Below, in pieces: positions 45,220 to 56,296 of a stretch of DNA of 64,000 bases. The DNA is from Pseudodesulfovibrio cashew (GTDB lineage: Bacteria > Desulfobacterota > Desulfovibrionia > Desulfovibrionales > Desulfovibrionaceae). The notes beneath the pieces are model-generated. The model was given only the letters and a program-made list of their open reading frames with translations, was not told where the DNA came from and made no database searches. Position 1 is the first letter of the stretch; each line of letters starts with the position of its first letter. The stretch spans positions 1,279,501-1,343,500 of the forward strand of contig NZ_CP046400.1 in NCBI RefSeq assembly GCF_009762795.1, given 5' to 3'. A program made the translations under genes and the position numbers.

Positions 45220-45501
45220 GACCATCCTCCCGTACGTCATCTGGAAATCAAACAGCTATTTTAACGCGTCCCCCCCAGTCCGCGATAGTACTGCTCTGGC
45301 ACCATGTATGGAATTAAGCAATTATAATGGAAGGGATAATGCATTGGAAGGTGGATAAATGTTGTCAACACCCGATTTCATGCCATTTTCGCCCTAAGAT
45401 GCCCTTTTTTTGCCCGATTTTATCCGCAGGAAAAAGCGCATGCTATGCTTTCCGCGTCCCGAATTCGAGGAGGTGAGCTGAAAGGAAAAGAGGAAAGAAT
45501 C

Positions 45502-46086
45502 ATGGCAACTAGCATCATTGAAATCTGTAATAACGCGCTGCTGGACCTGGGCGAAGACTCCATCATGTCCCTTGGCGACGAGTCCAAGGCCGCCGGGCTG
45601 TGCAACCACCGCTGGCCCGCCGTGCGCGACGCGGTCCTGCGCACCCATCCCTGGAACTGCGCCATGACCCAGGCCGAGCTGGCCGCGGCAACGGCGGCTC
45701 CCCTGTGGAAATGTGAATACAAATACACCCTGCCCACCGACTTCCTGCGCATCGTCCGCATCGTCGGCCAGGACTCCACTCCGGTCATGGACTGGGAGAT
45801 CCAGGGCGGCATCATCCTCTGCAACGAGGAGGCTCCCATCTACATCTCCTACGTGCGGCGCGAGACCGACCCAAGGCAATATGACGCCCTTCTGGCCGAG
45901 ACGTTCTCCGCGCGCCTGGCCGCCACTCTGGCCTATCCGCTGTCAGGATCGACCTCTCTGGCTCAGGCCTGCTGGAGGACCTACCAGGACAAGCTGTCCG
46001 AGGCCCGGGGGGTGGATGCCCGCGAGGGCGTGCCCGAATCCGTGGTCCCCACCGGCTGGCTCGGGGCCAAGGGAGGGAGGCTGTAG
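45502..46086 (+). CDS. Phage tail tubular protein-like gene
   Basis: 194 residues. The helical opening ATSIIEICNNALLDLGEDSIMSLGDESKAAGLCNHRWPAVRDAVLRTHPWNCAM (given here in parts) resembles tail tubular protein A of T7-like phages, a ring protein below the portal. The gene is isolated, plus strand, with a good ribosome site and its own terminator. No other tail genes follow. It may be a remnant of the same prophage as the capsid gene 3 kb away. Confidence 0.7.
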   Translation: MATSIIEICNNALLDLGEDSIMSLGDESKAAGLCNHRWPAVRDAVLRTHPWNCAMTQAELAAATAAPLWKCEYKYTLPTDFLRIVRIVGQDSTPVMDWEIQGGIILCNEEAPIYISYVRRETDPRQYDALLAETFSARLAATLAYPLSGSTSLAQACWRTYQDKLSEARGVDAREGVPESVVPTGWLGAKGGRL

Positions 46087-46095
46087 AAGGAAAAA

Positions 46096-46121
46096 CAAAG
46101 GGGGCATCCGCCCCCTTTTTC
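46096..46121 (+). terminator. Rho-independent terminator
   Basis: AAAGGGGGC / GCCCCCTTT stem with a four-base loop and T-run, right after the tail-like gene. Confidence 0.8.
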
Positions 46122-46142
46122 ATTGCCGTGACTCCGGCCTCG

Positions 46143-46658
46143 TCATCGTCTCCTGTGTCGCTTGCGCCACTGGTAGGGCGTTTCTTTCAGTCCGCCCCGT
46201 CTCCAGAATCCCCTTTTTTTCTCTTTGGCCATCTCCTGGGCGCGGGCGAGCGTGTCGCTGTGTCGGGTGTTGGGCGGATATTCCGTGGCCAGGGCAAGCC
46301 CGGCACCGACAATGGCCTCGTTGAGCATCCGGTCGCCGAGGTATGCGTAGGCGAGCATGCGGCCGTAGCGGTCCTTGCGTTCCTTGTCGAACTCCAGGGT
46401 CAGGGTCTGTCCGAAGCAGAACTTGAGAGTGAAGGCCTTGGCCTGCGTGCCGTACTCCTGGCCCCATTCCGGTGCGTCGATGCCAATGAGCCGGAGTTCT
46501 CGCGTCCGGCCATGATATTCGATGCGCAGGGAGTCGCCGTCGATGACTGAGAGAAAACGGGCGGTCTCCGCGGCAGGGGAGGGCGCGGACCACCCGCAGA
46601 GGACGAACAGGAGGCAGAAGACGCGAAGGAAAGGGAGAAAGGCGTTGCGGGAAGGCAT
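46143..46658 (-). CDS. Exported thermonuclease-like protein (SNase family)
   Basis: 171 residues. Hydrophobic signal segment (about 8-30), then the staphylococcal nuclease pattern: VIDGDSLRIEYHGRTRELRLIGIDAPE, KERKDRYGRMLAYAYLGDRMLNEAIVGAGLA, with conserved D, R and E of the active site. The family cleaves DNA and RNA in a calcium-dependent way outside the cytosol. No strong ribosome site precedes the ATG. Upstream it is divergent from a metallo-hydrolase gene. Confidence 0.85.
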   Translation of the reverse strand: MPSRNAFLPFLRVFCLLFVLCGWSAPSPAAETARFLSVIDGDSLRIEYHGRTRELRLIGIDAPEWGQEYGTQAKAFTLKFCFGQTLTLEFDKERKDRYGRMLAYAYLGDRMLNEAIVGAGLALATEYPPNTRHSDTLARAQEMAKEKKRGFWRRGGLKETPYQWRKRHRRR

Positions 46659-46715
46659 GGGGAGCGTGTAAACCGGATTGAAAATCAATACCAGCCCCAA
46701 TAAAGGACGGTCCCC

Positions 46716-47552
46716 ATGAAACTGACGTTCCTGGTCGAGAACAACTCCCTGGTCGGCAACTACCTTCTCTCCGAATCCGGCCTGTCCATCCTCATCGAGG
46801 ACAGGGAAAGCCGCATACTCCTGGATACCGGCTATTCCGATGCCTTCCTGCGCAACGCCCTCAGTCTGAATGCGGACCTGTTGCATCTGGACTGGCTGGT
46901 CCTGTCCCACGGTCATTATGACCACACCTGGGGCCTGGAGGCGCTCATCCGCCACTATTTCGAGGCCGCCTCCCTGAAGCGGGATGTTTCCCGGCCCAAG
47001 CTCCTGGCCCATCCGCAGGCTTTTCTTTCCCGGGTCAACAAGAAGGGGCTGGAGACCGGCATCCTGCTCGGCGAGGAGAAGCTGCGCCGTCAGTTCGAGG
47101 TCATGAGCGAGGCCGGACCGGTCTGGCTCAATGATCGGCTGGTGGCTCTGGGCGGCATCGAGCGGGTCTTCGATTTCGAGCGGGCCAAGCCCCTGGGCAA
47201 GCGGCTGGAGCCGGAAGGGCCGGTGGACGACCATATCCCCGACGACACTTCCCTGGCCTATGTTGCCGACGACGGCCTTGTGGTCATCGCCGGCTGCGCC
47301 CACGCAGGCATCTGCAACACCGTGGAGCAGGCAAAGCGGATAACCGGTGTGGACAACGTCCGCGTCGTGCTCGGCGGCTTCCATCTCCAGAAGGCCAAGC
47401 CCGAGCGCCTGGACTCGACCACCGATTACCTTGCCGAATTGGAGCTGGAGAGCCTGTACGCCTGCCACTGCACGGATCTGGCGGCCAAGCTCGCCTTGGC
47501 CCGGCGCTGCCCCTTGCGCGAGGCCGGGACCGGGCTCGTGCTGGAGTTCTGA
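46716..47552 (+). CDS. MBL-fold metallo-hydrolase
   Basis: 278 residues with LVLSHGHYDHTWGLEAL (HxHxDH zinc motif near residue 65-70), a later GCAHAGICNTV (His in metal loop) and GGFHLQKA. It resembles the group annotated as 7,8-dihydropterin-6-methyl-4-(beta-D-ribofuranosyl)aminobenzene-5'-phosphate synthase-like proteins. The true reaction is unknown. It is cytosolic, single, on the plus strand. Confidence 0.87.
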   Translation: MKLTFLVENNSLVGNYLLSESGLSILIEDRESRILLDTGYSDAFLRNALSLNADLLHLDWLVLSHGHYDHTWGLEALIRHYFEAASLKRDVSRPKLLAHPQAFLSRVNKKGLETGILLGEEKLRRQFEVMSEAGPVWLNDRLVALGGIERVFDFERAKPLGKRLEPEGPVDDHIPDDTSLAYVADDGLVVIAGCAHAGICNTVEQAKRITGVDNVRVVLGGFHLQKAKPERLDSTTDYLAELELESLYACHCTDLAAKLALARRCPLREAGTGLVLEF

Positions 47553-47672
47553 TTCCTTTCACCGACGAGCCTGAACACAGAGGGCTGTCGGGTCTTCCCC
47601 TGCTTGCCACTGTTTCGTGACGTGGCTGGAGGAGCTCAGGGCCTCCCCCAATGACTCTCCCGAACAAGAAAA

Positions 47673-47698
47673 GGGGGACCGCTCATGAGCGGTCCCCC
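47673..47698. terminator. Convergent terminator
   Basis: GGGGGACCGCTC / GAGCGGTCCCCC perfect stem between the metallo-hydrolase and the small phage-type gene. Confidence 0.82.
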
Positions 47699-47745
47699 GT
47701 GTCCGAACCGGGAGGGTTGTTCTGTTTTTACAGTATGAAGGTGTT

Positions 47746-47994
47746 CTAGCTTCCGTTGACCACCGTGACGGTGCCTGCGGTGTTGGTGGCTACCAAAAGA
47801 TCGACAGCGTCGGCCTTGGTTGCCCCGGTGCAGGCGATGACGATGTCGCCGGTGTCCAGATTGTAGTCTTCCACCGCCTCGTCGAAGTAGCCGGAGGCCG
47901 TGATGTCGGCCGTCAGGTCCTCGGTGCGGTAGATGAACAGCTGCTGGCCGGGAACGCCGCCCATCAGCCGCATGTCTTCACTGATATAAGCCAT
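47746..47994 (-). CDS. Small phage-type structural protein
   Basis: 82 residues. Beta-rich, acidic; N-terminal [25 protein letters not shown] followed by [24 protein letters not shown]. It sits 51 bases downstream of a phage capsid gene in the same direction and resembles small head-decoration or capsid-associated proteins encoded after capsid genes. Ribosome site AAGGAAG. Confidence 0.62.
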
Positions 47995-48045
47995 GATTGT
48001 TCTTCCTTAAGGGGCGGAGAGGGGCATTCCCCTCTCCGGTTGGGG

Positions 48046-48876
48046 TTAGAGGATGACCGCGTCGTCGTCGCACTGGATTTCGATGACGCCGTCCGGGTCG
48101 ATGAGGCACGCGCCCGCGCTGAGCATGTGGTCCACCAGGTGGGCGGCCTTTTCCGGCACCCAGTCCACGTAGGCCTTGACGTCCTGGCCTTCGGCCAGTC
48201 CCAGGGCGTTGCGGTGGTAGATGAAGCAGGAGCGGGTGCCGGTATCCAGGGGCAGCCCGGTGTGGAACATCCAGGTGATGCCGAGCCAGGTGCGGGATTC
48301 GGTGCCCTTGAGCCAGGGGTACTGCTCGCCGGAGAAGTCGCTTGACTTGAACTCCTGGATGTTGAGCAGTTCGTTCCACTGGTGGGGGCCCACCAGGGCG
48401 AAGCGGTGGCCGTCGTCGGCCACATCGTTGGCGTTAAGGGTTCCGAAAGCCTGGAGGATCTTGTCCTTGGTCAGGCCGGAGGTGGCCTCGGCCACCACGT
48501 TGGTGGCGCCGATCATCTTGGAGATGACCAGCTCGTCGATCTTGCGGCCCAGGGCCCAGGCCCCGGCGTCGGCGGCCACCTTCTGCTCGTCCTGCTTGTC
48601 CTTGAGTTCGTCGAGCTTGTCGACGTACTCGGCGGCGTACCAGTCGGACAGGGTGCAGGATACCGAGGTGTGGTTGAGGTTCATGAGCGGCACGTTGCCG
48701 TGGCGGGTCTTCTTGCCCGCGGTGCCCTTGCCGACTTTCTGGAAGACGCATTTGGAGCCCTCGACCTTGGTCTGCAGGCGCACGGTGTTCCTGATTTTGG
48801 AACCGCGCTGCTGGTAGGACTGGTGCACCATGTCCGCGTATTCGGTGACGAACGAATTGGCGATGGTTGTGGACAT
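48046..48876 (-). CDS. Phage major capsid protein-like gene
   Basis: 276 residues. MSTTIANSFVTEYADMVHQSYQQRGSKIRNTVRLQ and later KGTAGKKTRHGNVPLMNLNHTSVSCTLSDWYAAEYVDKLDELK (given in parts) match capsid proteins of podovirus-like prophages (Phage_capsid_2-like). A complete frame with AAGGAG upstream. No terminase, portal, protease or scaffold genes are nearby, so it stands as an isolated structural gene with one small partner downstream. Upstream lies a phased-repeat block shared with the RHS gene. Confidence 0.78.
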   Translation of the reverse strand: MSTTIANSFVTEYADMVHQSYQQRGSKIRNTVRLQTKVEGSKCVFQKVGKGTAGKKTRHGNVPLMNLNHTSVSCTLSDWYAAEYVDKLDELKDKQDEQKVAADAGAWALGRKIDELVISKMIGATNVVAEATSGLTKDKILQAFGTLNANDVADDGHRFALVGPHQWNELLNIQEFKSSDFSGEQYPWLKGTESRTWLGITWMFHTGLPLDTGTRSCFIYHRNALGLAEGQDVKAYVDWVPEKAAHLVDHMLSAGACLIDPDGVIEIQCDDDAVIL

Positions 48877-49420: not shown

Positions 49421-50425
49421 CTAGACGTCTTCGAACATATCTCGGATCTCTTCCATACTGCTGGTCAGACCCAGCGCGCACATAAGCCGGATGCGCGCCT
49501 TGGGGCCGCCGAGCCGTCCGCAGAGGATGATGCCCTTGTCCTGGAGGTCGGCTCCGCCGCCGGGGTAGCCGTAGATGGGCCAGACTCCGCCCTCGATGCA
49601 GCGGGTTGCCAGGACCACCGGAATATTGTCCGCAAGGCATGCCTCCAGGGCTGGTACCGCACCGGGCGGCACGTTGCCAGCACCGAAGCCCTCAATGACA
49701 ATACCCTTGTTTCCCACGCTTTTTGCATGATCGATAAGCGATCGATCCATTCCCGTATATGCGGTGAGCAGGGCGACCTTGGGCTCGATGGCCGCAGGGG
49801 AAATCTTACGCCTGGGGGCGTGGTGCAGGGGGCAGCCGGCCAGGATCACGGACTCTCCCGCCACGTAGCCGACGATGCCTGCTTCGCGGGATTCGAAGGC
49901 GTCCACGTTCAGGGAGTTGACCTTGACCGCCTCCCGCGCCGCGAAGATGCGGTCGGTCATCAGCAGGCACGCGCCCGTGCCCGGCGGAATGGGCAGCAGG
50001 ATGGCCCGCACGGCGTTGATCAGGTTACGGATGCCGTCGTAGCCGGACTCGGAGTAGTAGCGCATGGACCCGGTCAGGATCACGGGCTTGTCCGAGTCGA
50101 TGACCAGGTCGCAGAGGTAGGCGGTCTCGGCCAGCACGTCGGTTCCGTGGAGTATGACCGCGCCCAGTACCGAGGGGGCGGCCAGTCCTTCCTCGACCTC
50201 GCGGGCCAGCCGGAACATGTCCTCCGGGGTCATGTGCGGGCTCGGCTTGTCCGACCACAGGACGGGCTTCAGACGGACGTTCTCGTCCTGGGGGGCCAGC
50301 TGGTTGAGGAGCTTCTCGAAGTTGCCTCCAGGCGCTACGCCGTGGACTCCTTCCGACGGCGACATGCCGATGGTTCCGCCAGTAAAGAAAATCAATATTT
50401 CAGAGTGTTGCTTCTGTGTAGGCAT
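49421..50425 (-). CDS. L-asparaginase
   Basis: 334 residues. The two asparaginase active-site threonine motifs are present: FFTGGTIGM (first Thr) and HGTDVLAETA (second Thr with Asp), as are the KPVILTGSMR strand and YTGMD. There is no signal peptide, so it is probably the cytosolic type I enzyme, which deaminates asparagine to aspartate and ammonia. It is the downstream neighbour of the selenoprotein gene on the same strand, 64 bases away. Confidence 0.92.
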   Translation of the reverse strand: MPTQKQHSEILIFFTGGTIGMSPSEGVHGVAPGGNFEKLLNQLAPQDENVRLKPVLWSDKPSPHMTPEDMFRLAREVEEGLAAPSVLGAVILHGTDVLAETAYLCDLVIDSDKPVILTGSMRYYSESGYDGIRNLINAVRAILLPIPPGTGACLLMTDRIFAAREAVKVNSLNVDAFESREAGIVGYVAGESVILAGCPLHHAPRRKISPAAIEPKVALLTAYTGMDRSLIDHAKSVGNKGIVIEGFGAGNVPPGAVPALEACLADNIPVVLATRCIEGGVWPIYGYPGGGADLQDKGIILCGRLGGPKARIRLMCALGLTSSMEEIRDMFEDV

Positions 50426-50489
50426 TGTATTGCAGTTTGTTGCGGTTATTTGTGGTCAATGGCTTGCAGTCTCGCAGTCTGTTCCTGCG

Positions 50490-51092
50490 TCACAGGTCCG
50501 AAAGCGACCTTAACACCTCGCGGAAACGGTCTTCGGAAACCGCCCCGGTGATGGTCGGGCCACCCTCGAAGAAGAAGGCTGGGATGGCGGTGACACCGCG
50601 CGCCTTGGCCTCTTCGCTGCCCTCTGTCACGCGCTTGGCGAAGCGAGCCTCGGCCAGGGCTCGGTGCAGCCTGTCCGCATCCAGGGAGCACTGCCGGGCC
50701 ACGTCGAGCAGCACGGTCATATCTCCTATGTTCCGGCCTTCGGTAAAGTAGGCCCGGAAGACCGCCCGGTGAAAGTCGTGGTAACGCCCCTCGTCGCGGG
50801 CGAACTCGGCGGCCTCCAGGGCGAGGTGGGTGTTGCTCAGGGTGTGCATGTCCGCAAACTCGAGGCCGTAGGGCTCTCCCCGCTGGCGACAGGTCATGGT
50901 CACCTGGTCGATGTCGAACCGGGGGAAAAGATCGGTCATGGGCCTCCCTTCCTTGGGTGTTTCCGGGTGGATTTCGTGGGGCAGCCAGATATCGTCGATG
51001 GCGAATTCCATTTTCAGCGCGTCGACAATTCCCGTGCCGACATAGCAAAATGGTCACACAAAGTCCGAAAATATATAAATGGTTATGGACAT
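50490..51092 (-). CDS. FrnE/DsbA-type oxidoreductase, selenoprotein with U-P-F-C motif
   Basis: 200 residues when an in-frame TGA at 51054-51056 (codon 13) is read as selenocysteine: MSITIYIFSDFV-U-PFCYVGTG. DsbA/FrnE-family proteins have FDFVCPWCYVG here, so the TGA takes the place of the first active-site cysteine. The rest of the protein fits the family: LPHEIHPETPKEG, the DMHTLSNTHLAL helix and cis-proline in VTAIPAFFFEGG. The ATG at 51092 has GGAG at a good distance; the alternative ATG at 51011 would remove the entire first strand and active site. A hairpin follows the TGA. Probably cytosolic, substrate unknown. Confidence 0.85.
51008..51053 (-). promoter_or_regulatory. SECIS-like hairpin directly after the UGA
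   Basis: CCATTTT immediately after the UGA pairs with AAAATGG 32 bases further on (7 perfect pairs), with an inner GTCG / CGAC stem and a G-containing apical loop of about 13 bases. Size and position fit a bacterial SECIS element recognised by SelB. Confidence 0.65.
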
Positions 51093-51158
51093 CGATAAGT
51101 CTCCGGAAACTTTCTTTTCACGCACTTGGGCGTGTCGTCAAAAAAGACATCTCTTCGG

Positions 51159-51602
51159 CTATTCCACAAAATGAAGCTGGGGGACCCCGCCCTTGTCCAG
51201 GATGCGAACGATGGCCTGCCACCGCTCGTAGCAACCAGTATGTTGGTCGTCCGGCGGCTCCATGTCGTTTCGGTCAAAGGGAATCTCGGCCACTACATAA
51301 TAGGATTTGGTGAAGACCAGAGCCCAGTGTTTTCCGTCGTCCCACTTGAATCGGTAAGGGAGTTTGCCCCGGGTTTTGAAGTCTCCCCCGGCACCGGGCC
51401 GGACAACACAGACCGCATCCCAGTCGTAGTATTCCAGGAAGGCGTCCAGGGAAAAAGGTTGCTGGTGATCATATTGGCCCGACTTGAGCGCCTTGTTGAA
51501 ACGCTTGGCCACATACGTGTCCGTGTAGTCGAAGTTGACGGCAATCAGGATGGCCCCGGCCAGGACCACAAATACGATGATGGCGCTCTTCAGCCTCGTC
51601 AT
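51159..51602 (-). CDS. Hypothetical membrane-anchored protein
   Basis: 147 residues with an N-terminal membrane helix (about 7-23), then a soluble part rich in aromatic and charged residues (DYTDTYVAKRFNKALK, DAVCVVRPGAGGDF). Not recognised. A pair of cysteines is present (in DAVCVV and HTGCYERW). It lies upstream of the selenoprotein gene on the same strand with a 66-base gap. Confidence 0.6.
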   Translation of the reverse strand: MTRLKSAIIVFVVLAGAILIAVNFDYTDTYVAKRFNKALKSGQYDHQQPFSLDAFLEYYDWDAVCVVRPGAGGDFKTRGKLPYRFKWDDGKHWALVFTKSYYVVAEIPFDRNDMEPPDDQHTGCYERWQAIVRILDKGGVPQLHFVE

Positions 51603-51870: not shown

Positions 51871-53073
51871 ATGAATCCCACTGACAACGCATTCATTTTG
51901 ATCTGCGCGGCCCTGGTCATGTTCATGACCCCGGGCCTGGCCCTGTTCTACGGCGGATTGGTCCGCTCCAAAAACGTCCTGTCCACCATCATGCATTCCT
52001 TCATGATGCTGGGCCTGGTCTCGGTCCTGTGGGCCGTGATCGGCTACACCCTGTCCTTTGGCTCCGACATCGGCGGCCTCATCGGCGGGTTGGACTTTGC
52101 TTTTCTGCAAGGCGTCGGCATGGACAACGCCGGATCCCCGGCCGACAACCTGCCCCACCTGACCTTCATGATCTTCCAGTGCATGTTCGCCGTGATCACG
52201 CCCGCCCTCATTTCGGGTGCGTTCGCCGAGCGCATGAAGTTCGGCGGGTTCATGGTCTTTTCGACCCTGTGGCTGATCCTGGTCTACGCCCCCATGTGCC
52301 ATTGGGTCTGGGGCGGCGGCTGGATGGGCGAGATGGGCGCGCTGGACTTTGCGGGCGGTGCGGTCGTCCACATGAGCTCCGGCGCTGCGGCCCTGTGCTG
52401 CGCCATCCTCATGGGCAAGCGCAAGGGGCACGGCTCCACCGCCTTCATCCCGCATAACCTGCCCATGACCATTCTGGGGGCGGGCATCCTCTGGTTCGGC
52501 TGGTTCGGTTTCAACGCCGGAAGCGCCCTGGCCGCTGATGGAGTGGCTGCCAACGCCTTCGTGACCACCCACATGGCCACCGCCGCCGCAGCCCTGTCCT
52601 GGATCGTTGCGGAATGGTTCCACGGCGGCAAGGCCACTACCCTTGGCGCGGCCTCGGGCGCAGTGGCCGGACTGGTCGCCATCACCCCTGCCGCCGGTTT
52701 CGTTACCCCCATGTGGGCCATCGTCATCGGCCTGTGCGCGGGCGTCATCTGCTACGGCGGCATCATGCTCAAGAACAAGTTTGGCTACGACGACGCCCTT
52801 GACGTTGTCGGCATCCACGGCGTTGGCGGCACCTTCGGGGCGCTGGCCACCGGCGTGTTCGCCACCGTGGGTGCGGATGGCCTGATCAACGGCAACGCCC
52901 ATCAGCTTTGGGTCCAGTTCGTCTCGGTCGTCGCCACCTGGGCCTTCTGCTTCGTCATGACCTTTGTTATCTTCAAGGTGGTGGACGCCACTGTCGGCAT
53001 GAAGGCCAACGACGAAGAGCAGGACAAGGGTATGGATATCGCGGAACACTCCGAAACGGGGTATCAGTGGTAG
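51871..53073 (+). CDS. amtB: Ammonium transporter
   Basis: 400 residues, about 11 membrane helices, with the Amt hallmark FYGGLVRSKNVLS, the pore motif region DFAGGAVVHMSSG and the twin-histidine region (GGIHGVGGTFGALATG, here as GIHGVGG). It conducts ammonium into the cell. GGAGG precedes the ATG. GlnK is encoded 78 bases downstream, the usual arrangement in which GlnK plugs AmtB when nitrogen is abundant. A sigma-54 promoter lies directly upstream. Confidence 0.95.
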   Translation: MNPTDNAFILICAALVMFMTPGLALFYGGLVRSKNVLSTIMHSFMMLGLVSVLWAVIGYTLSFGSDIGGLIGGLDFAFLQGVGMDNAGSPADNLPHLTFMIFQCMFAVITPALISGAFAERMKFGGFMVFSTLWLILVYAPMCHWVWGGGWMGEMGALDFAGGAVVHMSSGAAALCCAILMGKRKGHGSTAFIPHNLPMTILGAGILWFGWFGFNAGSALAADGVAANAFVTTHMATAAAALSWIVAEWFHGGKATTLGAASGAVAGLVAITPAAGFVTPMWAIVIGLCAGVICYGGIMLKNKFGYDDALDVVGIHGVGGTFGALATGVFATVGADGLINGNAHQLWVQFVSVVATWAFCFVMTFVIFKVVDATVGMKANDEEQDKGMDIAEHSETGYQW

Positions 53074-53490
<417 letters not shown>

Positions 53491-53500
53491 TCAGGCCCCC

Positions 53501-53533
53501 AGTCCCGCCCGGCAGCGTTCCGGGCGGGATTTG
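53501..53533 (+). terminator. Terminator between glnK and glnD
   Basis: TCCCGCCCGG / CCGGGCGGGA perfect stem with an eight-base loop but only a weak T-run. It may lower, not block, read-through to glnD. Confidence 0.6.
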
Positions 53534-53689
53534 CCGAAGCCCTCGGTCCGAGAGTCCCGATAGGCTTCCCTTCACCTCGCCGGCCTCTTCGGAGGCTCGG
53601 CTGAACCGCCGGGGCGTACCGACCAGCGCCCCGGCGGTTCAACCCCATCCCGGCTTGCCGCCGCACTCCTCAACCGCTAGGCTATCCGC

Positions 53690-56296
53690 ATGCAGCCAGA
53701 CGCCCATCTCCCCGAATCCGCCAAGCGCCTCAAGCAGGCCAGGAGCGACCTCTGGGCGCGGGCGAAAAATGGCTCGGTGGGTGGCTTTGCCTGGGAGTAT
53801 TCCCATCTGGTCGACCAGTATTTCGAAGACCGCATCCTGGAGGCGGGCGGCCAGCGCTTCGCCTTCACCCTCGTGGCCGTGGGCGGTTACGGACGCGGTC
53901 GCCTCTGTCCCGGCTCCGACGTGGACGTGCTGCTCCTGTTCAAGCGGAGAATCCCCTCGGGTGCCGCTGCCTTCGTCAAGAAGCTCCTGTTCCCCTTGTG
54001 GGACCTCAATTTCGATCTCGGCCACGGCGTACGCACCGTCGCCGACTGCCTGGCCCTGGCCAAGAAGGACTTTCAGGTCCTGGCCTCGCTCCTGGACGCC
54101 CGGCCCCTGGCTGGTGACGCCGATGTCTTCCAGGCCTTCCGCGCCGCCTTCGACGCCAAGGTGCTCAGGCGCAAGGGCAAGGTGTTCGCCGAAAGCCTGC
54201 GTGAGCACAATCGGACGCGGGCCGCCCAGTACGGCGACGCCACGGGACGGTTGGAGCCCGAACTGAAGAACGGTCTGGGCGGCCTGCGCGACGGGCAGCA
54301 GGTCCTCTGGCTCTCCCGGGTGCTGGAGGCAATGGGCGGGAAACCCCTCTTCCTGCCCGAGGAGCTCGCCCGGCTGCGCGAGGACCAGGCTTTTGTCAAC
54401 CGCGCCCGCACCGCTCTGCACCTGGCCGCCGGGCGCAAGAACGATACGCTCTTTTTCGACCTCCAGCCGCCCACCGCCCGGTTGCTGGGCTTCGCTCCGC
54501 AGGACGGCAGCCCCGAGTCCATGGGCCGCGCCGTGGAGTTCTTTCTTTCCCGGCTGCATCAGGCCATGACCCGTATCAAGGCCATGCGCCAGGCCCTGTA
54601 TCAGGAGGGATTCCCGCGTCCGTTGGAAAGGGTCCCGGTCCTCTCGGTACGCAACCTCGGAGCCGGACCGCAGGGCATCTATTTCAAGTCCCAGGCCGCA
54701 GCCACGCCCGAGAATGTGCTCGACGCCTTCCTGGAGTCCTCGCGCACGGGTCTGCCCCTGACCTGGGGGGCGCGCAGGCTCATCCGGCGCGACCCCGGCA
54801 GGATTGCGGCCCGGCTGATCGACAAGCGGCAGACCCTATCCATCCTGGTGGAGATATTCCTGTCGCCCAGGGCCGAGGCCGCCTGCGACGGCTTGCTGGA
54901 GACACGGTTGCTCCCGGCCATCTTCCCCGAGTTTGGCGACGTGGAGCACCTCATCCAGTTCAATGACTACCACGTTCACCCCGTGGGGCGGCACACCATG
55001 GCCGTCATTGCCAGGCTCGCCGCCTTTCGGGACGGTGAACCGGCTTGGGCAGGCGAGATTTTCGCCCGGATAAGCGATCCCAAGCGGCTCATCCTGGCCG
55101 GTTTCTTTCATGACCTCGGCAAGGGACAGCCGAGCCATTCCAAGGCCGGGGCACGCATGGCCCGCGATGTCCTGGCTCGCTATGGAAGGGACGGGGAGAC
55201 CATCGAGGACGTGGCCTTTCTGGTGCAGCACCACCTGCTCATCCCCAAGGCCGCCACCCGCCACGACCTCTCCGACGAGCGAGTGGTCCTGGACGTGGCC
55301 GCCACCATCGGGACCCCGGAGCGGCTGGAGATGCTCTACCTGCTCTCCGTGGCTGACTCCACGGCCACAGGGCCCCGGGCGTGGAACAACTGGACCCGCT
55401 CGCTCCTTTCCGAGCTGTATTTCAAGGTGAAGCACCTGCTGGACCACGGCCCGCTCTCCGGGCCGGACGCGGCCAAACGGCTGGCCGGTGTCAGGGAAGA
55501 GGTCCTGTCCGCCAGCCGGGACAAGGACCCGGAGTTCATCAAGGCGGCCATGGACGCCATGCCTCCGCGCGCCTTTCTCGCCTTTGACGCACCAGTGCTG
55601 GCCCGGCAGATCGCCCAGGTGGAGCGGTTCTGGAAGGCTCTTGCCGAGGACCGAATCCGCAAGCCCTCCCGCATCGCGGGCAAGGGTGTGAACCTGGTCG
55701 AGGCGGAGCCGGGCCGGGCCAAGGGCACCTACCGGCTGACCATCACGGCCCTGGACCGCACCGGCCTCTTCTCCACCCTGGCCGGGGCCATCGCCCTGCA
55801 CGGCATGTCCATTCTGGCCGCCGATCTTTTCATTTGGAAGGACGGCACCGCCGTGGACGTGTTTACGGTCAGCGACCCGCCGGAGAATCTCTATCTGGAA
55901 GAAGTCTGGGCCCGTATTTCCCGTTCCATCAGCTACGCCCTGCTGGGCAAGCTCGACCTTGCGGCCCGGCTGGAGGAGAGGCGGAGGTCGCCCCTGACCC
56001 GGGATCGGTCCAAACCCCGACTCAGGCCGTTGGTCACCGTGAACAACGATCTGAGCGATTTCTATACGATCATAGAGGTGGCGGCCACGGACCGCACCGG
56101 CTTCCTGTTCGATATGGCGCGGGTTCTGGCCGAGCACCATCTCTCAATTCATCTTGCCAAGATAACGACCATCAAGGGCCGGGCAGCCGACATCTTCCAC
56201 GTGCGGGACGAGGACGGCCAGAAGGTGCTGGACGAAGGCCGCATCGAGGTCATTCGCACTGCGCTGCTCACCGCCTCGGGCGGCCCGGAGAGTTGA
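53690..56296 (+). CDS. glnD: [Protein-PII] uridylyltransferase / uridylyl-removing enzyme
   Basis: 868 residues in the GlnD order: nucleotidyltransferase (VGGYGRGRLCPGSDVDVLLLF, metal site G-G...D-x-D, about 62-83), a helical bundle, an HD phosphohydrolase domain (HVHPVGRHTM.., FHDLGKG, about 415-500) and two C-terminal ACT domains (about 690-770 and 790-860) that sense glutamine. It adds and removes UMP on PII. Placed after amtB-glnK, it completes a nitrogen-sensing unit. The ATG at 53690 has only a weak ribosome site. Confidence 0.94.
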   Translation: MQPDAHLPESAKRLKQARSDLWARAKNGSVGGFAWEYSHLVDQYFEDRILEAGGQRFAFTLVAVGGYGRGRLCPGSDVDVLLLFKRRIPSGAAAFVKKLLFPLWDLNFDLGHGVRTVADCLALAKKDFQVLASLLDARPLAGDADVFQAFRAAFDAKVLRRKGKVFAESLREHNRTRAAQYGDATGRLEPELKNGLGGLRDGQQVLWLSRVLEAMGGKPLFLPEELARLREDQAFVNRARTALHLAAGRKNDTLFFDLQPPTARLLGFAPQDGSPESMGRAVEFFLSRLHQAMTRIKAMRQALYQEGFPRPLERVPVLSVRNLGAGPQGIYFKSQAAATPENVLDAFLESSRTGLPLTWGARRLIRRDPGRIAARLIDKRQTLSILVEIFLSPRAEAACDGLLETRLLPAIFPEFGDVEHLIQFNDYHVHPVGRHTMAVIARLAAFRDGEPAWAGEIFARISDPKRLILAGFFHDLGKGQPSHSKAGARMARDVLARYGRDGETIEDVAFLVQHHLLIPKAATRHDLSDERVVLDVAATIGTPERLEMLYLLSVADSTATGPRAWNNWTRSLLSELYFKVKHLLDHGPLSGPDAAKRLAGVREEVLSASRDKDPEFIKAAMDAMPPRAFLAFDAPVLARQIAQVERFWKALAEDRIRKPSRIAGKGVNLVEAEPGRAKGTYRLTITALDRTGLFSTLAGAIALHGMSILAADLFIWKDGTAVDVFTVSDPPENLYLEEVWARISRSISYALLGKLDLAARLEERRRSPLTRDRSKPRLRPLVTVNNDLSDFYTIIEVAATDRTGFLFDMARVLAEHHLSIHLAKITTIKGRAADIFHVRDEDGQKVLDEGRIEVIRTALLTASGGPES

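Follow-up and report, generated by a model that had tools for sequence, protein, structure and literature searches.

Three described systems stand closest to the gene reported here: the DsbA-like selenoproteins, entered under COG2761, which we take to be the FrnE group, a DsbA-like TGA gene of Desulfovibrio desulfuricans, and the FrnE protein of Deinococcus radiodurans (DR_0659). DsbA-like selenoproteins with a UxxC active site have been in print since 2005, when they were described among Sargasso Sea sequences under COG2761 (PMC1088965). They were also recorded in ocean metagenomes (PMC2398784), listed as a family in a 2022 review (PMC9312934) and named 'DsbA-like protein form 1' (PF01323, UxxC) in a 2026 review (PMC13188914). 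The family has in common with our gene the PF01323 fold, the selenocysteine (Sec) in the first position of UxxC and a downstream bacterial SECIS element (PMC1088965, PMC13188914); in the comparison, which follows the description of the 2005 sequences, no difference of kind was seen. The case of 'Dde_1263 + upstream' from Desulfovibrio desulfuricans, published in 2007, is likewise similar by its published description, having an in-frame TGA and a start 5' of the called gene (PMC1914089), and the same species is also listed with DSBA-like in another source (PMC1794560). The Deinococcus FrnE belongs to the same family and shares the active-site position, but it has Cys where our protein has the predicted Sec. 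Furthermore, its chain of 260 residues carries a C-terminal CXXXXC that helps to regenerate the active site (PMC8945050), both features being unlike the 200-residue protein described below. In searches of open-licence papers no selenoprotein FrnE from the genus studied here was found.

The gene is located in a stretch of 64,000 nucleotides of Pseudodesulfovibrio cashew (contig NZ_CP046400.1), called the window in the following. Judged from its sequence, it is an addition to this already known selenoprotein family, with strong comparative evidence, and the earlier note on this DNA was right in not regarding the family as new. It occupies 50490..51092 on the minus strand and encodes a predicted frnE-type selenoprotein of 200 residues, including Sec13, with a DSBA-like thioredoxin fold. 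The ATG at 51092 is preceded at a distance of 8 nt by GGAG (51101..51104, minus strand), which we take to be a Shine-Dalgarno-like motif. From this start, which the earlier note had already proposed, the frame reads MSITIYIFSDFV-TGA-PFCYVGTGIVDALK, beginning with PFCYVG after the TGA, and terminates at the TGA 50492-50490. Codon 13 (TGA, 51054..51056, minus strand) is the sole break in the whole frame of 51092-50490; it is the predicted selenocysteine in the first position of UxxC.

When the TGA is read as a residue, the translation matches Pfam DSBA (PF01323) with 90.2 bits against a curated cut-off of 25.6, over profile positions 1-190 of 191. The best solved relatives by sequence are the FrnE protein chains 5cnw and 5cp1 (E 5.2e-18), presumably the Deinococcus protein, and the putative DsbA oxidoreductase SCO1869 was also matched; the FrnE/DsbA-type assignment made earlier was thus confirmed. 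U13-P-F-C16 was aligned with the CPWC of the solved FrnE chains, giving a CxxC-type N-terminal active site in the form of UxxC, where Cys16 (51045..51047, minus strand) is the predicted resolving cysteine. The family motif had been stated as CPWCY; this has to be corrected, since the genus loci read CPFC[Y/F], and CPWCY is common in more distant relatives. The conserved proline loop is also present: Pro171 (50580..50582, minus strand, in VTAIP) is invariant in an alignment of six rows, and it is a candidate for the cis-proline of the thioredoxin fold. The C-terminal CXXXXC motif of many FrnE proteins was absent from the 200-residue window protein when its sequence was inspected. Some accepted FrnE proteins also lack this motif, hence it is not a required feature (PMC8945050). 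The translated chain begins directly at the first strand, and because of this beginning we infer a cytoplasmic place for the product, which is also the place predicted for FrnE proteins in the same source (PMC8945050).

As the earlier note had claimed, ordinary gene calling yields only a truncated open reading frame (50490..51011, minus strand) that lacks the active site; the product of the ATG at 51011, with 173 aa, is found both in the ORF list and, identically, in the protein collection. Truncated products also exist in the protein collection for three relatives, namely P0039 (169 aa), P0062 (140 aa) and P0066 (153 aa), which correspond to the loci L027 (genome G019), L024 (G031) and L043 (G015), respectively; all three loci are TGA forms, and in all four truncated products, the window gene included, the start lies 3' of the active site. 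The presence of the truncated product in both collections could be taken to mean that the TGA is a true stop, due to a pseudogene or a sequencing error, and that the cell makes at most the 173-aa product starting at 51011. However, the codon of this start is ATG in the window genome and in 0 of the 17 other TGA-form loci of the genus, while the residues encoded 5' of the TGA align across the genus.

The alignment of homologues speaks further against a true stop. Within the genus a match was obtained in 27 of 36 genomes, 25 of them full-length, and the aligned codon is TGA in 18/25 and Cys (TGC or TGT) in 7/25 of the full-length loci. The partial loci L048 and L049, 29% identical, stand outside the genus count and outside the total given below; in the any-residue alignment L049 proves to be a different DsbA-type protein with Cys at the codon, and the site is outside the extent of L048. 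At the family level 39 of 247 genomes gave a match, and the 14 matches beyond the genus comprise 6 TGA and 8 Cys forms; at the phylum level 84 matches were detected in 83 of 395 genomes (67 TGA, 16 Cys, 1 other). The genus, family and phylum searches together provided 121 loci, with TGA in 90, Cys in 30 and Ser in one. The 90 TGA and 30 Cys forms were first read by a motif script restricted to U or C at the site; an any-residue alignment agreed on all 120 of these loci and added the Ser of L217. Since the aligned codon is TGA in 90 of 121 loci by the script and by the unbiased alignment as well, the position of the TGA is not a matter of chance, and the suggestion that it replaces the first catalytic cysteine is supported. 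The same TGA in 17 other loci of the genus and in 90 of the 121 loci overall, together with the covariation of the hairpin described below, leaves the true stop with a very slight probability.

The serine locus L217 has SPYG in place of CxxC and so carries no Cys at either active-site position; its genome (G281) also contains a TGA-form gene, L219. In a separate scan of named genome contigs 10 of 80 kept loci have TGA at the site, a proportion biased to Cys forms by the use of a single peptide pattern that contained the Cys. These ten come from one Tumebacillus, two Nitrospirae, one Selenomonadales and six Chloroflexi records; the first of them (L050) is a TGA-form FrnE gene in a Tumebacillus lacus record, in whose genome selB is present.

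The complete machinery for selenocysteine is encoded in the genome of the window, where the search recommended by the earlier note recovered selA (608.5 bits), selB (387.5 bits) and selD (338.5 bits) by their profile scores, as well as a tRNA-Sec with 80.8 bits, above the Rfam cut-off, for which ARAGORN gave the anticodon TCA. The selD gene (L019, 1501-2427) itself carries an in-frame TGA within KAAGUAAK, the motif of its active site. Low-level UGA readthrough occurs in bacteria. The UGA of frnE could therefore be passed by a near-cognate tRNA, for instance as Trp, or by a frameshift, in either case without selenium. Against this stands the full Sec machinery, and also the identity of the sense alternative, which in the any-residue alignment is Cys in 30 of 31 loci and Ser in the remaining one, whereas Trp does not occur; moreover, a SECIS-like hairpin follows the UGA and is mostly lost in the Cys genes. 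We consider readthrough without selenium highly improbable.

In the window gene the minimum-free-energy fold of the predicted SECIS region (51008..51053, minus strand) has -16.1 kcal/mol and contains an outer stem, CCATTTT/AAAATGG, in which positions 1-7 after the UGA pair with 40-46, and an inner stem of 8 pairs, UGUCGGCA/UGUCGACG. Among 200 dinucleotide shuffles 2 folded as well, and the z relative to them is -2.33. The loop CGGGAAU starts after 19 nt from the UGA, and the hairpin lies within the limits stated in the 2026 review: a loop of 3-9 nt with G in its first two positions, a distance of 16-37 nt from the UGA and MFE <= -7.5 (PMC13188914). The fold after the TGA is accordingly SECIS-like, as had been anticipated. 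Scanning 50400-51500 against Rfam returned no SECIS family; a viral pseudoknot model on the plus strand (51326-51361) stayed below the gathering score and was taken as chance.

Comparison of the sequences following the UGA revealed which part of this structure is conserved. All 90 TGA sequences could be aligned without gaps over the UGA and 50 nt. Positions 14-20 after the UGA pair with 26-32, and among the 87 distinct TGA sequences 91.5% of the cells are paired, compared with 23.3-49.9% in a control in which the partner was slid by 1 to 3 columns. Two-sided changes occur in six of the seven pairs, with 110 cells changed on both sides, a value reached in 0 of 500 shuffles; as kinship among the sequences inflates the shuffle control, more weight is due to the contrasts with the slid control and with the Cys genes. 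Among the distinct sequences the pair 16-30 is GC in 47, AU in 30 and UA in 5, and 18-28 is CG in 45 and UA in 37; within the genus A19-U27 is exchanged for G19-C27 in L040 and L041. The Cys genes provided a sharp distinction: when synonymous codons were resampled, the SECIS-type stem score had a mean z of 2.62 in the 90 TGA genes vs 0.03 in the 30 Cys genes (Mann-Whitney p 1.4e-10), and a run of 4 or more contiguous pairs, starting at 19-27 and counted downwards, was present in 67/90 TGA and 2/30 Cys genes. The contiguous core stem is shorter than 4 pairs in this register in 23/90 TGA genes. Codon choice is also restricted: among TGA-form genus rows that share the majority residue, a single synonymous codon is used at residues 18 (14/14), 19 (18/18), 20 (12/12) and 23 (18/18), while at residue 22 two of the 18 genus TGA forms differ in codon by a compensated change, and the codon of the loop residue 21 varies.

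Plain folding energy discriminates poorly. MFE <= -7.5 is reached by 87/90 TGA genes but also by 25/30 Cys genes, which makes it a weak test; the mean MFE z is -1.02 in the TGA and -0.26 in the Cys genes (p 0.009), and when each gene is set against 100 resampled sequences, only 25 of the 90 TGA genes match the folding of the lowest 5. The 7-pair outer stem was rejected as a conserved part of the SECIS: 73.2% of its cells are paired in the 16 distinct genus sequences, and the two-stem model gave 7 two-sided cells in the genus vs 8 in the +1 slid control. RNAalifold kept the inner helix alone on the genus set. Hence the earlier proposal of a 7-pair stem with four inner pairs holds as far as its presence in the fold of the window gene is concerned, but the inner stem has 8 pairs, and the inner, not the outer, stem is conserved. 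The inner hairpin, with its conserved core UCGGCA, loop CGGGAAU and UGUCGA at 51022..51040 (minus strand) according to covariation and RNAalifold, is the predicted SECIS element, and the outer stem is weakly conserved.

On these comparisons we conclude with high confidence that the gene encodes a predicted cytoplasmic FrnE-type thiol-disulfide oxidoreductase of the DsbA family, in which the first active-site residue is selenocysteine (U13-P-F-C16), and very probably a full-length redox enzyme with this active-site selenocysteine is made from it. In the proposed mechanism SelB with Sec-tRNA-Sec would recognise the hairpin just 3' of the UGA at 51054-51056, and Sec would be inserted at this codon. 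The selenolate of U13 would attack substrate disulfides, C16 would resolve the mixed selenenylsulfide, and the net result may be that disulfides are reduced or isomerised in the cytoplasm.

Directly downstream of frnE, after a gap of 64 bases, there is an L-asparaginase gene on the same strand (49421..50425, minus; Pfam PF00710 and PF17763, tblastn). It adjoins frnE in 24 of the 25 genus loci, irrespective of whether they are Sec or Cys forms, and only the divergent L047 departs from this; a search of the flanks fetched for 21 loci from outside the genus (L130-L150) did not find it. The two genes possibly constitute a conserved operon. This arrangement, together with the location of the UGA as early as codon 13, would fit a codon acting mainly as a selenium-responsive switch, with the full enzyme made in the presence of selenium and, in its absence, a stop after 12 residues with polarity on the downstream asparaginase. 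Nevertheless, all 7 Cys-form genes of the genus also keep the asparaginase neighbour, which means that the pairing of the two genes does not need the UGA. We regard such a switch as unlikely, and it would add to, rather than replace, the interpretation of the gene as a selenocysteine-containing FrnE.

Other genes were also observed around the locus. Phage-type genes lie nearby, one for a tail protein at 45445-46086 (phrog_394) and one for a major capsid protein at 48046-48876 on the minus strand (PF19821), which suggests that 45445-48876 holds prophage remains. Genes for an ammonium transporter, a P-II protein and a GlnD-type uridylyltransferase stand in a row at 51871-56296 on the plus strand. 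Before frnE, at 51159-51602 on the minus strand, a 147-residue protein with no Pfam match is encoded; relatives of it occur at 6 other genus loci, within the stretches fetched, and vary there in place and direction.

The history of the Sec and Cys forms was followed on protein trees. The larger tree, with 111 of the 120 rows, excluded nine distant ones (L215, L216, L218 and L220-L225, where L218 is a TGA form), and its well-supported branches force a minimum of 11 changes between the Sec and Cys labels. On a tree of 48 rows rooted on L142, parsimony with equal costs gave a Sec root with 8 Sec-to-Cys changes and no change from Cys to Sec. Four of these eight changes belong to the genus, one each in L046, L037 and L034 and one in the clade of L026, L028, L030 and L036. 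If Cys-to-Sec changes are given half cost, the root becomes Cys at a cost of 15 vs 16, and the tree then takes 13 gains and one loss; the Sec root is held to be more likely, since 13 gains would need a similar hairpin to arise many times. In the 11 Cys genes of this tree all six core pairs are kept in L037 and L134, and the other nine show one to three mismatches; L037 keeps the G19-C27 pair of its sister.

The distribution of selB was compared with these forms. It is present in all 7 Cys-form genomes of the genus (G004, G005, G006, G020, G022, G026, G030). In the phylum, selB was detected at E 1e-70 in 63 of the 67 TGA-form genomes (tally by eye); at this threshold it was not found in G255, G356 and G566 (85, 76 and 76% complete) nor in G438, a genome rated 100% complete whose TGA-form gene is L199. 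Among the phylum genomes with the Cys form alone 13 of 16 have selB. As selB occurs in 353 of the 395 genomes of the phylum sample, its presence there is consistent with the Sec forms but not diagnostic. Nine of the ten TGA-form genomes of the named-contig scan also have it at E 1e-40, with G628 giving no match at that level.

Reading codon 13 as selenocysteine repairs an annotation in which an enzyme is left without its active site, both in this genome and in no fewer than three related ones. According to a published view, Sec-to-Cys changes are few and mostly concern formate dehydrogenase and selenophosphate synthetase (PMC1794560). We think it somewhat more likely than not that frnE of this genus is a natural Sec/Cys switch series, in which at least 4 separate changes from Sec to Cys took place beside the same asparaginase neighbour, with selB retained and the SECIS decaying stepwise from intact (L037) to broken. 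What may be new to a specialist is the repeated Sec/Cys change within a single genus. The genus offers a closely spaced set in which the same enzyme occurs with Sec or with Cys among relatives retaining selB, and such natural pairs let one test why lineages keep or drop selenocysteine.
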